This document shows positions 10,829 through 51,970 of a DNA stretch of 64,000 nucleotides, in pieces (within the stretch, counting starts at the first letter, position 1; each line of letters starts with the position of its first letter). A model generated the notes under the pieces. The model made no database searches, was not told where the DNA came from, and saw only the letters and a program-made list of their open reading frames with translations. A program made the position numbers and the translations under genes. The stretch is from Bacillaceae bacterium IKA-2 (GTDB lineage: Bacteria; Bacillota; Bacilli; Bacillales; Anaerobacillaceae): contig CP134492.1 of NCBI GenBank assembly GCA_031761875.1, positions 2,790,001 through 2,854,000 of the forward strand. The letters are read 5' to 3'.

Positions 10829-10999
10829 GAAAGTTGAAAGTAGAATGTAGAAAGTTGGAAGGTTGGAAAGGCAGTTCAAAGGCTTTAAGTGAAGTTAAAA
10901 AGATCGTTAGGAAGGTCAAAGTCTTTTCCGTACAATTGGTTTAACTTTTGATTTTTAGCTTTTCCTTTCCAACTTTCAACTTTCCATCCTTCCAACTTC
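10829..10999. repeat. Dispersed inverted repeat, family 1 (copy 2)
   Basis: Left arm at 10829-10874 is rich in GAAAGTTGGAAGG-type units; the right arm at 10964-10999 holds the inverse (CCTTTCCAACTTTC). The core AGTTCAAAGGCTTTAAGTG and CAATTGGTTTAAC is clearly related to copy 1 at 2857-2999. It fills the fmt-priA gap, the place where def lies in B. subtilis. Confidence 0.8.
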
Positions 11000-11011
11000 T
11001 TTATGCCAGTT

Positions 11012-14654: not shown

Positions 14655-14735
14655 AAATATGAGTTTGGTAGTTGGTTAAGAAGGGGAAAAGCAGAAAGTA
14701 TGCCTTTCCAACTTTCTACTTTCTGCCTTTTTTTA
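14655..14735. repeat. Dispersed inverted repeat, family 1 (short copy 3)
   Basis: GCAGAAAGTA (14691-14700) and its inverse TACTTTCTGC (14717-14726) enclose CCTTTCCAAC, the family-1 arm motif, with TAGTTGGTTAAG upstream. This is a compact form of the element lacking the long core. Confidence 0.65.
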
Positions 14736-14737
14736 TT

Positions 14738-14774
14738 AAAAAAAAAGAGGGCGACTCATTTAAGCGCTCGTCTC
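14738..14774 (-). terminator. Possible terminator after rpoZ
   Basis: On the minus strand GAGACGAGCG...CGCCCTC can form an interrupted stem directly followed by nine T. The stem is imperfect, so the call is tentative; it would separate remA-gmk-rpoZ from coaBC. Confidence 0.45.
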
Positions 14775-16012: not shown

Positions 16013-16090
16013 TGGTTTCCCCTGCCCATCTATGTATTATAACCAGAACTTCGGTTATTTTAACATCTTTTTCTTTATATTGCTAATAAA

Positions 16091-16230
16091 ATTAATTTCA
16101 TAATGGTTATTTCGCGCCACACCAAGCTATATCTAGTTGAAATAAAACATTTTTAACTAGGGAGTTGAAATGAACCGTTTTCAACTTTGTAGCTTGATGT
16201 AGCTAATATATTGATATTATGAAATTCATT
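16091..16230. repeat. MITE-like inverted repeat, family 2 (copy 1)
   Basis: Ends ATTAATTTCATAAT (16091-16104) and ATTATGAAATTCATT (16216-16230) are inverted copies. The interior carries GCGCCACACCAAGCTATATCT and TAGTTGAAA, which match the arms of the element at 48720-48834. The 140-base unit fills most of the yicC-remA gap and has no coding capacity. Confidence 0.75.
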
Positions 16231-16242
16231 ATATAAAGATGA

Positions 16243-37709: not shown

Positions 37710-37745
37710 AGTTAGTTCCCCCTGGTAATCTCTATTAATTTTATG

Positions 37746-37852
37746 CAAAAAACCTCCTTTCTACACAAAGAGGTACGTTCGTCCACTTGATTGTGGTTTT
37801 AAAACCACAATCAAGACAGAGGAGATACCCCTTGCTAGTCTCTCTGGACTAG
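37746..37852 (-). promoter_or_regulatory. PyrR attenuator 2 (pyrR-pyrP)
   Basis: Minus strand. The binding hairpin CTAGTCCAGAGAGACTAG (37835-37852) carries the consensus PyrR loop. AAGGGGTA just after it can pair with TACCTCTT, the 5' arm of the terminator ACCTCTTT...AAAGGAGGT plus T6 (37746-37774). A perfect 30-base palindrome (37786-37815) lies in between and would cap the antiterminator. Confidence 0.92.
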
Positions 37853-37853
37853 T

Positions 37854-38429
<576 letters not shown>

Positions 38430-38444
38430 TTAAGAATTATCCAG

Positions 38445-38552
38445 GAAAAAAACCTCTCACCAAAGATGAGAGGTTTTTGAGTATACGATCGTGTAGCAGA
38501 TTATAAAACTTCTGCCGCGCATCTCTATTTCCTTCTCAGTCTCACTGGACTG
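38445..38552 (-). promoter_or_regulatory. PyrR attenuator 1 (pyrR leader)
   Basis: Minus strand. The binding hairpin CAGTCCAGTGAGACTG (38537-38552) is followed by an alternative stem region with a GCAGA/TCTGC hairpin and a terminator AACCTCTCATCTTTGGTGAGAGG with T-tract (38445-38477). This controls the whole operon. Confidence 0.92.
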
Positions 38553-38583
38553 TAATTAAAGGGAGTATGTTCTTGTCCATTAA

Positions 38584-40077: not shown

Positions 40078-40285
40078 AGTGCAGAAGAAGTTGGAAAGAT
40101 AGATCAAAAGGTTTTTAAGGATAGTTGGTTAGTTGATTACCCTTTAGTTGAGGGAATTCAAAAAAATTTAAGACCTAATGAGCTTATTTTGACTTTGATC
40201 TTTGATTTTGTTCTTCCTAACCAACTAGCCACTAACCAACTAATCTGCTTTTCCTTTCCAACTTCCACTTTTTCTAGCTCTTCAC
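40078..40285. repeat. Dispersed inverted repeat, family 1 (copy 4)
   Basis: AGAAGTTGGAAAG near 40086 and CTTTCCAACTTC near 40254 form the outer arms; GATCAAAAGGTTTTTAAGG resembles the family core, and an inner pair TAGTTGGTTAGT/ACTAACCAACTA (around 40122 and 40232) adds a second stem. It fills most of the 313-base ylyA-lspA gap. Confidence 0.75.
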
Positions 40286-44074: not shown

Positions 44075-44340
44075 TAAAAAACCTTCTCTGCCCTAAATAG
44101 GGACGAGAAGGTTAACCCGCGGTACCACCCTGATAAACAGTATTATCTATTGAATACTGATCACTTGAAATTCGTAACGTGAATGAATCGTCACAGCCTA
44201 CTGAAATAAAAAATTGTTCGGTGTGAAGCTCAAGGGTGATTTTCCTTTTTACAGCGCTATATCAGGCTTTCACTGTTCCTGACTCGCTAAGATAACTAAG
44301 TATGTAAAAGTACTATCCCTTTCGTCGCCTTATTATACGT
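44075..44340 (-). ncRNA. T-box riboswitch controlling ileS
   Basis: Minus strand. The T-box AGGGTGGTACCGCGG (44131-44117) is followed by a terminator AACCTTCTCGTCCCTA...TAGGGCAGAGAAGGTT with T6 (44113-44075). Stem I begins near 44335. The likely specifier codon is ATC (44240-44238) in GGAAAATCACCC, an isoleucine codon, which fits the gene. Read-through needs uncharged tRNA-Ile. Confidence 0.93.
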
Positions 44341-46071: not shown

Positions 46072-46101
46072 TTAAACTGATCACCCACTTTAAAATATTT
46101 T

Positions 46102-46164
46102 AATGAATTTCATAATACAGATTCAGATACAAATGAACTAAATTAATGTGGTTATGAAATCCAC
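46102..46164. repeat. MITE-like inverted repeat, family 2 (short copy)
   Basis: AATGAATTTCATAAT (46102-46116) followed by ACAGATTC, and GGTTATGAAATCCACT at the right end, match the outer arms of the 48720-48834 and 16091-16230 elements. The interior is deleted. It abuts the sepF stop codon. Confidence 0.65.
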
Positions 46165-46590
46165 TTATTCAGAAGTAATATCTGAAATTGTTCCTGCGAC
46201 ATCAACGTTATCAGGAGTACAAAGAAAAATATTTGCTCCTAACTTTTGAATATCGCCTCCTATAGCATACACTGTTCCACTCAAAAAATCGACAATTCGT
46301 TTTGCTTGGTCAAGACTAATTCGTTGCAGGTTAATGACAACTGCTTTACGGTTTTTTAAATGATCAGCAATATCCTGTACCTCATCGTAAGTTCTAGGTT
46401 CGAGTAACATTACTTTTGCAGATTTTTGGACACTTTGTAAGCTCACAACATTTGCTTTTTCAATTTTTTTATCTTGACCTCGAGTTATATAATCTTCATC
46501 TATCTCTTGCCAATCATTTTGATTTTGAATAGCTTCAATATCGTCATCTTCTAGCTCAAAAAAACGCTTAAATTTTGCTTTTAAGCTCAT
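46165..46590 (-). CDS. sepF: Cell division protein SepF
   Basis: Polymerising protein that tethers FtsZ filaments to the membrane. The 141 residues start with an amphipathic membrane-binding helix ([11 protein letters not shown]), then an acidic linker and the FtsZ-binding domain (about 55-135) with [20 protein letters not shown] and the GG at 112-113 needed for ring assembly. B. subtilis SepF has about 152 residues. GGAGAGAAG precedes the ATG. Confidence 0.96.
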
Positions 46591-46655
46591 TTTTCTTCTC
46601 TCCTTTACGTTATAAAAGCAGGCACTGGCGTTTAGTTCACCGGTGGATTTTACCT

Positions 46656-47333
46656 TTACGTTTCACTTCCTACTAACGAACTGCCAATTCTTATAAATGT
46701 TGCTCCTTCTTCAATGGCAATCTGGAAATCATTTGACATTCCCATTGATAATTCTTGGCAAGGGGCGTAGGGCACTTGAAGGGCTTGGACTCTTTGTTGA
46801 AGTTCCTTTAGAGACCGGAAATATTGCCTGGTCTCTAAAGGGTCTTCAACGTGCGGAGCCATCGTCATTAATCCGACAATCTCAATAAAGGGATAAGACT
46901 TTAAGTCATTAATAAAACCAATTAGTTGAGACGGATCAATACCATGCTTCGATTCTTCTTTTGAAACATTTACTTGAACAAAACATTTTATTTTTTTGTT
47001 TGTTCGTTTTTGAATTTCTTTTGCTAAAGAGAGACGGTCTAGAGAATGAATATACTCAAATTGGTCAACCATCTCTTTTACTTTTCGTGTTTGAAGGGTG
47101 CCGATAAAGTGCCAAGTTCCTTCTCCTTCAAGAACTTTCCTTTTTCGTACGCCTTCCTCAACTCTATTTTCCCCTATATTAGTGAGGCCTGCTTCAAGTG
47201 CTTCTTTTGCCCTTTCATCACTAACGTATTTTGTTACGGCAATAATTTGGACACTATCTCGATCCCTTCCAACCCGCTGACAGGCGGCTGTGATTCCCTT
47301 TTCTATTTTTGCTAAGTTTTCTATCACTGTCAA
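46656..47333 (-). CDS. ylmE: PLP-binding YggS/PROSC-family protein YlmE
   Basis: Pyridoxal phosphate homeostasis protein with an alanine-racemase-like barrel. The 225 residues have the PLP lysine in IIAVTKYVS (about residue 35), [27 protein letters not shown] and the end VRIGSS-type motif ([10 protein letters not shown]). No racemase C-terminal domain is present. The start is a TTG with AGGAGG 9 bases upstream. It lies between ylmD and sepF as in other Bacillus. Confidence 0.94.
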
Positions 47334-47430
47334 CGTAAATTACCTCCTAAGACATTGTAAAGAAAATAACGGTTCAAAAATGATGAGGATATTTTATGTC
47401 AACAAAGTATGATACAAAATAGACCATCGA

Positions 47431-47470
47431 ATAAATTTCATAATATCAATTAATTAGCCATATCTTGGAG
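47431..47470. repeat. Family-2 half element
   Basis: AAATTTCATAATATCAATTAATTAGCC followed by ATATCTTGG matches the inverse of the right arm at 16186-16230. Only one arm is present. Confidence 0.5.
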
Positions 47471-47474
47471 ATAC

Positions 47475-48299
47475 CTAATCCATTCGTCCAATAAAACTCA
47501 TCATTCTACCTGTTTGTTGCTTCCGACGATAAGAGTAAAATAAATCTTTTTCTGTATACGTACAGAAATTTGATTTAAAAATATGATCTGGTTTTATTCC
47601 AATATTTAGTAATAGTTGTACGTTTAATTCCTTTAAATCTAATAAATATTTACCTCGGCCATTTTTCTTAAAAGGCATCAGTGAACCCTCTGGCAAAACT
47701 TCGATAACTTTACTGATCACAAAGTCATCCACTTCATAGCATTCTTTGGAAATTGCAGGTCCGATTGCAACGTATATCGAATTTAAAGGGATTTCTTCCT
47801 CGTCTGTCCACTTTCGAACCATTTCCGGTCCGATTTTAGCAACAGTTCCCTTCCAGCCCGCATGTGCTAAGCCAATAATTGTGTTTGTAGTCGAATAAAA
47901 ATATAATGGCACACAATCTGCATAAAGGCTTGCTAAAAGGATATTATTTTCTTTTGTGAATAACCCATCACAACCCTCAATTGCACTTTTAATTTGTAAC
48001 GTACCACTTCCACAATCTTTTTGGCTAACTTTTTTTATATTACTCCCATGAATTTGCTCTGAAAAGACCCATCTATTTAATGGGAATTGGAGTTCGTCTG
48101 CTAGCTTTTTTCGATTTTCTATTACAGTACTATCTTCATCTTGAACATGCAATCCAAGGTTTAAAGAATCATACGCCTCTATACTATACCCTTTTGATCT
48201 CGTTGAAAATCCGACAATAAGTCTATCATCAAGCACTTTTAACGGCTCCAGCGTTAGAAATGGGTGACTATCTAAAACAAAAGCCTCATTTTTCAACAA
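47475..48299 (-). CDS. ylmD: YfiH/LACC1-family multifunctional purine nucleosidase-type protein YlmD
   Basis: Member of the laccase-domain (Cu-oxidase_4, YfiH/LACC1) family; bacterial members have been reported to act on purine nucleosides. The metal-site residues are visible: EQIHGSN, ADCVPL and GLAHAGWKGT. About 274 residues. The start is uncertain: no ATG is near, and TTG codons at 48299 or 48296 sit best behind AGGA; a GTG at 48305 is too close to it. The neighbour is ylmC upstream and ylmE downstream. Confidence 0.9.
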   Translation of the reverse strand: MLKNEAFVLDSHPFLTLEPLKVLDDRLIVGFSTRSKGYSIEAYDSLNLGLHVQDEDSTVIENRKKLADELQFPLNRWVFSEQIHGSNIKKVSQKDCGSGTLQIKSAIEGCDGLFTKENNILLASLYADCVPLYFYSTTNTIIGLAHAGWKGTVAKIGPEMVRKWTDEEEIPLNSIYVAIGPAISKECYEVDDFVISKVIEVLPEGSLMPFKKNGRGKYLLDLKELNVQLLLNIGIKPDHIFKSNFCTYTEKDLFYSYRRKQQTGRMMSFIGRMD

Positions 48300-48398
48300 A
48301 GACACTTCCTATTCTTTATGCTTTTACCTATTCTAACATATTTTTCAATTTTCAAGTAGCATTTTAGAGGGTCCTGCAAGGAGCAAGGATTCATTTAA

Positions 48399-48641
48399 TT
48401 AGGATTCCTCAATACGAACTAAAATTACATCAGAACCTATCTTAACAATATTTGCCCACGGTATGCTAATTTCCGTTTCTCTCCCCCCTAAAAATGTAAG
48501 CATCTTTCCTGTTCCACCAATAATAATTGCTTCGACAGCACCTGTTTCTAAATTAATGTCTAAATCACTAATATGACCTAGTACCTTCCCGTCAGAAATA
48601 TTTACAATATCTTTTGATTGAATTTCTGAAATTTTCAACAT
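48399..48641 (-). CDS. ylmC: PRC-barrel protein YlmC (YlmC/YmxH family)
   Basis: An 80-residue PRC-barrel protein. Visible are SEIQSKDIVNISDGKVLGHISDLDI-type features, GRETEISIPWANIVKIG and an acidic end. YlmC/YmxH proteins accompany sporulation genes but the function is unknown. The ATG at 48641 has GGGGGAGA 5-6 bases upstream; five in-frame codons upstream are not needed. It follows sigG, separated by a terminator and a family-2 repeat. Confidence 0.9.
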   Translation of the reverse strand: MLKISEIQSKDIVNISDGKVLGHISDLDINLETGAVEAIIIGGTGKMLTFLGGRETEISIPWANIVKIGSDVILVRIEES

Positions 48642-48719
48642 GATTATCTCCCCCATTTCAAATTAGGCTTAGTACATTTATATGTACTAGCGGGAAATAT
48701 ATTTATTATAATATTAATA

Positions 48720-48834
48720 AATGAAATTCATGATTCCAAAACTAGCCACATCATTCTACATCTAGTTGAGGATGTTTTAATTCAACTAGATGTAGAATCC
48801 TAGTGGCGCAGAATCTGCATTATGAAATTCATTC
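48720..48834. repeat. MITE-like inverted repeat, family 2 (full copy)
   Basis: Outer ends ATGAAATTCAT and ATTATGAAATTCATT enclose a perfect inner pair, TCTACATCTAGTTGA (48755-48769) and TCAACTAGATGTAGA (48782-48796), with a 12-base loop. The whole 115-base element folds as one long imperfect hairpin and has no coding capacity. Confidence 0.8.
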
Positions 48835-51680: not shown

Positions 51681-51770
51681 AGTATATATCAAAACCTATC
51701 TATAAGTCTGTCAGTTTATGCCGATAGAAAAGCAGAAATTTTAAGACTTTTGCACAAAAATTGTCGACAG
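51681..51770 (-). promoter_or_regulatory. spoIIG promoter: 22-bp spacer plus Spo0A box
   Basis: Minus strand CTGACA (51714-51709) and TATACT (51686-51681) have a 22-base spacer, the unusual distance known for the Spo0A-activated spoIIG promoter of B. subtilis. TTGTCGACA (51761-51769, read on the plus strand), a near-consensus Spo0A box, lies about 90 bases upstream of the expected transcript start. A weaker TCTGTCAG at 51707-51714 overlaps the -35. Confidence 0.8.
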
Positions 51771-51970
51771 AAAAGCTCGAGCGCCTTGGTAGCTGCGAGT
51801 ATGTTGGAGACTTACCATAAAGAGGCGCCTTTTGCCTCTGCATGATAAGTTGAAACATTCGAGCAGCTAGGCGCTGAAGCTAGACACAGAAAAGCTCGAG
51901 CGCCTTGGTAGCTGCTCGAGCTAGACATAGAAAAGCGGAAGCACCTTGGTAGCAGCGACAAACGTTGGAG
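51769..51970. repeat. Family-3 extragenic repeat cluster (three units)
   Basis: Unit A (51769-51894) starts AGAAAAGCTCGAGCGCCTTGG and ends AGGCGCTGAAGCTAGACA. Unit B (51887-51928) has the same two ends with the middle deleted. Unit C (51929 on) has only the start, AGAAAAGCGGAAGCACCTTGG. Similar units are common between genes in Bacillaceae genomes, as I recall. Confidence 0.8.

Follow-up and report, generated by a model that had tools for sequence, protein, structure and literature searches.

A genus-wide MITE-like family in Bacillaceae bacterium IKA-2 and its relatives, with candidate deletion scars and apparent arm-to-arm copying across its hairpin

Introduction

Four related sequences with inverted ends lie in gene gaps of a 64,000-nucleotide stretch of Bacillaceae bacterium IKA-2 (assembly GCA_031761875.1, contig CP134492.1, positions 2,790,001 to 2,854,000; the window), raising the question of whether they are remains of a mobile element or conserved regulatory structures of the ylm and yloC operons. 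An earlier note on the window had read them as a MITE-like element in several stages of decay. The explanation that we consider probable is a genus-wide MITE family, with scars left by deletion from one end to the other and with copying between arms across its hairpin.

Materials and methods

The genome under study (G000) has a 4.42-Mb chromosome, of which the window is G000:C1:2790001-2854000. Together with six relatives (G001 to G006) it makes up all seven genomes examined of the genus, and also of the whole GTDB family; three of the seven are incomplete or contaminated drafts, and G003 is an 80% complete draft. The 80 elements of G000 that were read were picked from search listings and are not a census. 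The G003 sample is a contiguous, unselected 940 kb in which all elements number 87 (52 duplicated), or 86 distinct elements (51 duplicated) if identical or overlapping ones are counted once. Elements close to locus ends were left out of the counts.

Results

Four copies in the window

The four sequences lie between genes that we take, from their sequence and order, to be yloC, remA, sepF, ylmG, ylmD, ylmE, sigG and ylmC:

16089-16231, 143-bp copy in the gap between yloC (stop 16243) and remA (start 16012), with ends AAATTAATTTCATAAT and ATTATGAAATTCATTA
46101-46166, 66-bp copy in the sepF-ylmG gap, internally deleted as read from the sequence
47429-47464, left-end remnant in the ylmD-ylmE gap, consisting of GAATAAATTTCATAAT and some 20 bp of the inner arm
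48719-48834, 116-bp full copy in the sigG-ylmC gap, with an intact core stem TCTACATCTAGTTGA / TCAACTAGATGTAGA

The earlier note had placed full copies at 16091-16230 and 48720-48834, and these are indeed two near-complete copies whose edges move by one or two bases. Its short copy at 46102-46164 is real and internally deleted, with edges corrected to 46101-46166, and its half element at 47431-47470 is a left-end remnant bounded by 47429 and 47464. Terminal inverted repeats, which it had ascribed to all four, are found at both ends of three copies (16089-16104/16216-16231, 46101-46116/46151-46166 and 48719-48734/48819-48834), whereas the remnant has a left end only (47429-47444). The inner TCTACATCTAGTTGA / TCAACTAGATGTAGA pair, likewise said to be shared, is exact in the 48719 copy only: the core of the 16089 copy differs, being a double stem of the 143-bp size class, and neither the 46101 copy nor the 47429 remnant has such a pair. 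Three of the four do lie within 2.8 kb (46101-48834), and the right end of the 46101 copy overlaps the sepF stop codon (46165-46167).

Compared with shuffled sequences, the 16089 and 48719 copies fold far better (z -6.42 and -8.99, respectively), and no significant difference is seen for the 46101 copy (z -1.29) or the 47429 remnant (z 0.14). Rfam has no family at the places of the window copies at its gathering threshold. Exact 4-bp duplications are found at the edges of none of the window copies, the flanks being ATTT/ATTC (46101), TAAT/TATT (48719) and AATA/TATA (16089).

Other features of the window are a T-box leader (44096-44334) and PyrR binding sites (37743-37864 and 38443-38566), all recognized by Rfam and ordinary. 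Another dispersed repeat consists of runs of a GGAAAGTTGGAAAGT-type unit in both orientations (2789-2990, 10837-11002, 14701-14738 and 40088-40276). A 30-bp sequence, ACAGAAAAGCTCGAGCGCCTTGGTAGCTGC, occurs at 51767-51796, 51886-51915 and 51927-51956, two copies being identical and one 80% so; a similar stretch adjoins a solo end in locus L031.

A dispersed family confined to one genus in the sample

A genome-wide search with the terminal repeat, which the earlier note had proposed as a check, bore out the dispersed nature of the element. The 14-base end ATGAATTTCATAAT was found, with at most one mismatch, at 151 + 142 places in G000 compared with 4 + 5 for the reversed pattern, that is, 293 end matches against 9 in the control. 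A BLAST search with the 48719 copy returned at least 42 places with E below 1e-22, query included (40 of 229 first-look candidates were scored). An alignment of 30 copies puts the edges at GAATGAATTTCATAAT and ATTATGAAATTCATTC; G003 subfamilies have the ends GAGTGAA... and ...CATTA. The elements are non-coding and mostly 115-119 bp long, within a range of 42-150 bp, and carry 16-bp inverted ends.

Both ends in exact form, separated by 72-100 bases, occur 24, 9, 6, 153, 5, 42 and 8 times in G000 to G006, respectively (control 0). This paired-end pattern, which is strict and would miss diverged relatives, is present in all seven genomes of the genus and in none of 390 others sampled from the order (397 genomes drawn). 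For another strict pattern, the sole match in a collection of named genomes, which may lack own or near records, was Anaerobacillus arseniciselenatis; the genus is probably Anaerobacillus. The plasmid and phage collections gave no match to the element. Over the first 700 kb of G003, copies of subfamily A (30) have a mean pairwise identity of 0.90 and copies of subfamily B (27) one of 0.84; the subfamilies differ between species.

Between co-directional open frames sit 48 of the 80 G000 elements, a count that is no guide to avoidance of open frames, as the elements contain stops. Tandem pairs of elements 4 bp apart were seen twice (G003:C1:715863 + 715985 and L026:1501 + 1622); in the G003 pair an identical ATCT precedes the first copy, separates the two and follows the second.

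Target duplications and empty sites point to mobility

An exact 4-bp repeat brackets 37 of the 80 G000 elements, compared with 0-6 at sixteen other offsets, and 52 of the 87 elements in the 940 kb of G003, compared with 0-3 at other offsets. The target resembles TANNTA, the flanks of the 37 duplicated G000 copies having T 29, A 33, N, N, T 30 and A 28; these flank counts are separate from an earlier target table that was symmetrized by adding reverse complements.

The window sites were then compared with the corresponding gaps in the relatives, as the earlier note had also proposed. The yloC-remA gap has no end sequence in five of six relatives, G006 having a different element there, and the sepF-ylmG gap measures 25-26 bp in five of six, with G004 also carrying an element. 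The ylmD-ylmE gap is 141 bp in G000 versus 13-15 bp in all six relatives, and in the sigG-ylmC gap the element or its end sequence is absent from all six. Because these sites are mostly empty in relatives, we regard the window copies as mobile insertions and not as conserved regulators. The mobile reading put forward in the earlier note is thus supported by genome-wide copies, by window sites that are not conserved across the genus and by a target duplication that is real for the family taken as a whole.

One G003 insertion (634753) is common to G005, and locus L113 of G001 aligns there with its own element; therefore some insertions are old. A comparison of filled and empty sites between G003 and G005 offered a single usable site, filled in both; the lack of a filled and empty pair is counted against our explanation. 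A DDE-type transposase supplied in trans would, we infer, cut at the ends and insert with a 4-bp stagger.

Search for an autonomous partner

No end pair (at most two mismatches in 13) was found around transposase genes of the PF01609, PF00665, PF13546 and PF13701 families in 106 loci of the seven genomes, examined together with flanks of about 1.5-2.5 kb; some of these loci contain the same gene. They comprise 30 of 159 PF01609 and 30 of 107 PF00665 loci, 20 more representatives chosen by frame length, and all 9 PF13546 and 17 PF13701 loci. Solo ends in G000, inspected by eye with flanks of 1.5-2.5 kb, gave no partner either, and looked like decayed elements or chance matches. Two candidates were rejected by eye: in L285 an old element contains an insertion sequence and the other end is a chance match that falls within a gene, and L273 is a solo right end beside a fragment of an rve-family gene.

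G003 has the most elements, yet in this 80% complete draft PF01609, PF13546 and PF13701 are all without a match and rve has two. The drafts G003 and G005 have no PF01609 match and two and no rve matches, respectively, yet the most exact-end elements (153 and 42). G004 has 130 PF01609 and 75 rve matches but five exact-end elements.

Size classes

The 80 G000 elements fall into groups of 35 at 115-119 bp, 14 at 75-79 bp, 9 at 140-144 bp and 6 at 105-109 bp, the others being spread over 42-150 bp. Short forms are duplicated as well (7 of 15 at 70-79 bp and 3 of 6 at 80-89 bp). Short direct repeats mark the ends of some inner deletions, as at the ACTAG junctions of L052, L162, L166 and L190; others have one junction common to several copies, and forms that share a junction may represent a subfamily that multiplied after reaching its present length. 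In part, the same may hold for the 77- and 143-bp forms, in place of independent decay. The series of deletions that the earlier note took for decay fits the observed classes of about 117, 143, 105 and 77 bp, together with still shorter forms and with the 15-bp palindrome as the end point.

A second core stem, GTTGAAATGAACCGTTTTCAAC or its complement with variants, was observed in the 140-144-bp class, at 16089-16231 of the window and in L035, L045, L046, L156, L157, L177, L183 and L191. It is possibly a product of template switching.

Solo palindromes as candidate deletion scars

Except at its centre, the core of the end, ATGAAWTTCAT, reads the same on both strands, and therefore the two inverted ends can equally be aligned as near-perfect direct repeats of each other. 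Deletion between them, by slippage across the hairpin in replication, would leave the 15-bp GAATGAAWTTCATTC inside the old target duplication. The corresponding pattern AATGAAWTTCATT occurs 70 times in G000 (once in the reversed control) and 6, 4, 8, 3, 0 and 0 times in the other six genomes (controls 0-2), whose ends partly differ, so that this is no fair count of scars for them.

We read 55 of the 70 solo palindromes, leaving 15 unread. An exact 4-bp repeat lies at the edges of 29 of the 55, compared with 0-3 at other offsets and, in 1,000 shuffles of the partners, a mean of 2.1 and a maximum of 7. At the centre, 32 of them have T and 23 have A, and deletion would give either. A possible partner end lies within 175 bp of six of the 55, among which L164 and L166 are plainly ends of longer elements; with the six set aside, 27 of 49 retain the exact duplication. 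In the 29 duplicated cases the target reads T 16, A 22, A 18, T 14, T 23 and A 24: the first T is present in 16 of 29 scars versus 29 of 37 elements, and A at the second duplicated base in 18 of 29 versus 10 of 37. The scar target is thus similar to, and not identical with, that of the elements. Most of the 70 solo palindromes of G000 look like scars of element deletion.

Several observations count against the explanation that we favour. Exact duplications are lacking from 26 of the 55 palindromes, and 8 of the 55 lie within open frames of at least 80 aa, where a 19-bp insertion is unexpected; three of these eight have the duplication. In the 940 kb of G003, where a wider pattern was used, four scar-like sequences lie outside elements, one with a repeat, beside 87 elements, and the G003 ends are almost as palindromic as those of G000 despite this near-absence of scars. 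The smaller number there may mean that the insertions are younger (exact repeats at 52 of 87 versus 37 of 80 elements) or that a host factor differs.

Palindromes that are perfect, number about 70 in one genome and, among those read, mostly lie between open frames could also serve some DNA-binding regulator as operators and have nothing to do with the elements, and the cases that lack an exact duplication agree with such a role. Against it, 29 of the 55 are bracketed by an exact 4-bp repeat right at the element edge, with a similar target preference, and the palindromes are far fewer (0-8) in each of the other six genomes; we consider operators very improbable. Another alternative is that the scars were made by the transposase, through aberrant excision or joining of ends, and not by replication slippage. 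The junction exactly at the ends, the retained duplication and the abundance of scars in a single species, which might reflect an enzyme or host factor of that species, all suit this proposal. The scar is, however, the product expected of deletion between the ends in their direct-repeat form, and some further internal deletions likewise have short direct repeats at their junctions (the ACTAG cases above), which makes a transposase origin unlikely in our judgement. Slippage, the route that we prefer, resembles nearly precise excision of Tn10, in which the stretch between short repeats close to the two ends of the inverted-repeat element is deleted and a remnant stays behind. The likeness lies in the deletion between end repeats; the difference is that here the product is a 15-bp end palindrome, formed many times in one natural genome.

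Covariation and arm copying in the hairpin core

Pairing in the core was examined in 99 copies that are 110-125 bp long and come from the seven genomes and from L091, with gapped cells set aside. Standard pairs of the named structure are present in 92.8% of cells. Changes on both sides of a pair affect 234 cells versus 77.3 after shuffling, and the covariation score is 0.215 versus 0.088 shuffled and 0.027-0.053 slid, numbers that are inflated by kinship among the copies. As a control within genomes, whole right arms were shuffled among copies, the counts being of cells and not of events. Compensated core cells numbered 21 in G000 (39 copies) compared with 5.2 shuffled (maximum 12), 14 in G003 subfamily B (35 copies) compared with 1.1 (maximum 5), and 4 in G003 subfamily A (39 copies) compared with 0.28 (maximum 4, so that the observed value was reached). 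One-sided core changes outnumber the compensated ones, with 48, 30 and 19 cells, respectively, and are counted against our explanation.

If the structure were selected as RNA, the transcribed strand should show more GU wobbles than AC mismatches. The 24 copies that lie between co-directional open frames (genes called crudely) have 17 GU versus 27 AC; 11 of these copies are oriented with transcription and 13 against it. Neither measure supports RNA selection.

In 3 of 165 copies (G003 142261, G003 707942 and L054 of G000) the two inner arms match without a difference over 24-27 nt, the usually unpaired loop included, the next longest match between inner arms being 18. Between copies, oriented and with the three converted copies excluded, 1 of 9,234 comparisons reaches 19, a cut-off that was chosen after the first results. 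The donor arm is clear only for G003 142261, whose right arm resembles left arms, and is unclear in the other copies. A hairpin would let one arm template the other by template switching, keeping or restoring the pairing and so mimicking RNA covariation. These identities suggest that copying from arm to arm happens in replication, which need not explain all of the compensation. Template switching has been proposed for RNA genes, with one arm copied from the other to give multi-base compensatory changes, in the part of a report available to us (PMC8794818); the setting there is RNA genes, and here a dispersed mobile element without sign of RNA selection.

The strong fold of two window copies, the compensatory changes over the 99 copies and the position of 48 of 80 G000 elements between co-directional frames would all be expected if the hairpins were conserved cis-acting RNA structures, such as attenuators, terminators or mRNA stabilizers, of the ylm and yloC operons. 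Against this stand sites that differ between species, 4-bp target duplications, a near-random orientation with no GU excess on the transcribed strand, and the lack of an Rfam match at the window copies at gathering threshold, and we regard it as extremely improbable. It is also conceivable, if somewhat unlikely, that transposition itself selects for the palindromic core, a hairpin being needed by the transposase, with compensation arising through point mutations. Such selection would account for named pairs holding in so large a share of cells across the 99 copies, but stepwise compensation does not readily give a normally unpaired inner loop identical to the other arm, as in three copies, and the duplicated 75-80-bp and shorter forms have no core, which suggests that the core may be dispensable, unless these forms shrank after insertion.

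Discussion

The element is short and non-coding, has inverted ends and a fixed 4-bp duplication, and exists as many dispersed, lineage-specific copies, all traits of a MITE. Correia, ERIC and BOX/RUP sequences are likewise short non-coding palindromic intergenic MITE-like repeats, and to our knowledge they differ from the present element in ends, target and host. We know of no target duplication at REP or BIME sequences. These are palindromes of 20-40 bp in the part of a report available to us (PMC3733652), whereas the element is mostly 115-119 bp long and has a 4-bp duplication. Closest in kind among the systems compared, as far as the available parts of two reports describe them, are the bcr1-bcr3 repeats of the Bacillus cereus group, interspersed MITE-like sequences of 100-400 bp that are often found in UTRs or operon gaps (PMC6542083, PMC3446304). 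The bcr1 repeat averages 39 and reaches 130 copies per strain, and its mobility is tied to a TTTAT motif (PMC6542083, PMC3446304). Here, too, dispersed MITE-like repeats are confined to one group of Bacillales, but the target is 4 bp within TANNTA instead of TTTAT, the ends are different and the host belongs to another genus, so that neither the TTTAT target nor the restriction to the B. cereus group that defines bcr1 applies.

No report of the family or of duplication-flanked end palindromes was found among titles and abstract openings of the open-access literature, outside which most subscription papers lie. A text search with the end sequences gave no paper on such repeats by title or abstract opening; one Bacillus thuringiensis paper holds both strings. 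The family is of the MITE kind and new, ordinary in its nature and instructive in its apparent decay.

Covariation usually passes for the strongest evidence that an RNA is functional, and palindromes that recur between genes are usually taken for the sites of a regulator. Both signals seem here to come from a mobile element and its decay, with the target duplications as evidence of origin; the 15-bp palindromes of G000 could pass for a regulator binding site. We propose, tentatively and as somewhat less than an even prospect, that the family is both maintained and destroyed by replication errors at its own palindrome, which would rewrite arms in a manner that mimics RNA covariation and collapse whole elements to duplication-flanked 15-bp palindromes. 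If this is true, the hundreds of dispersed copies would be a natural record of palindrome-driven mutation, and deletion would be strongly species-dependent, high in G000 and low in the G003 sample, hinting at a host factor. The family offers many natural replicates for the repair and deletion of palindromes in bacterial chromosomes.
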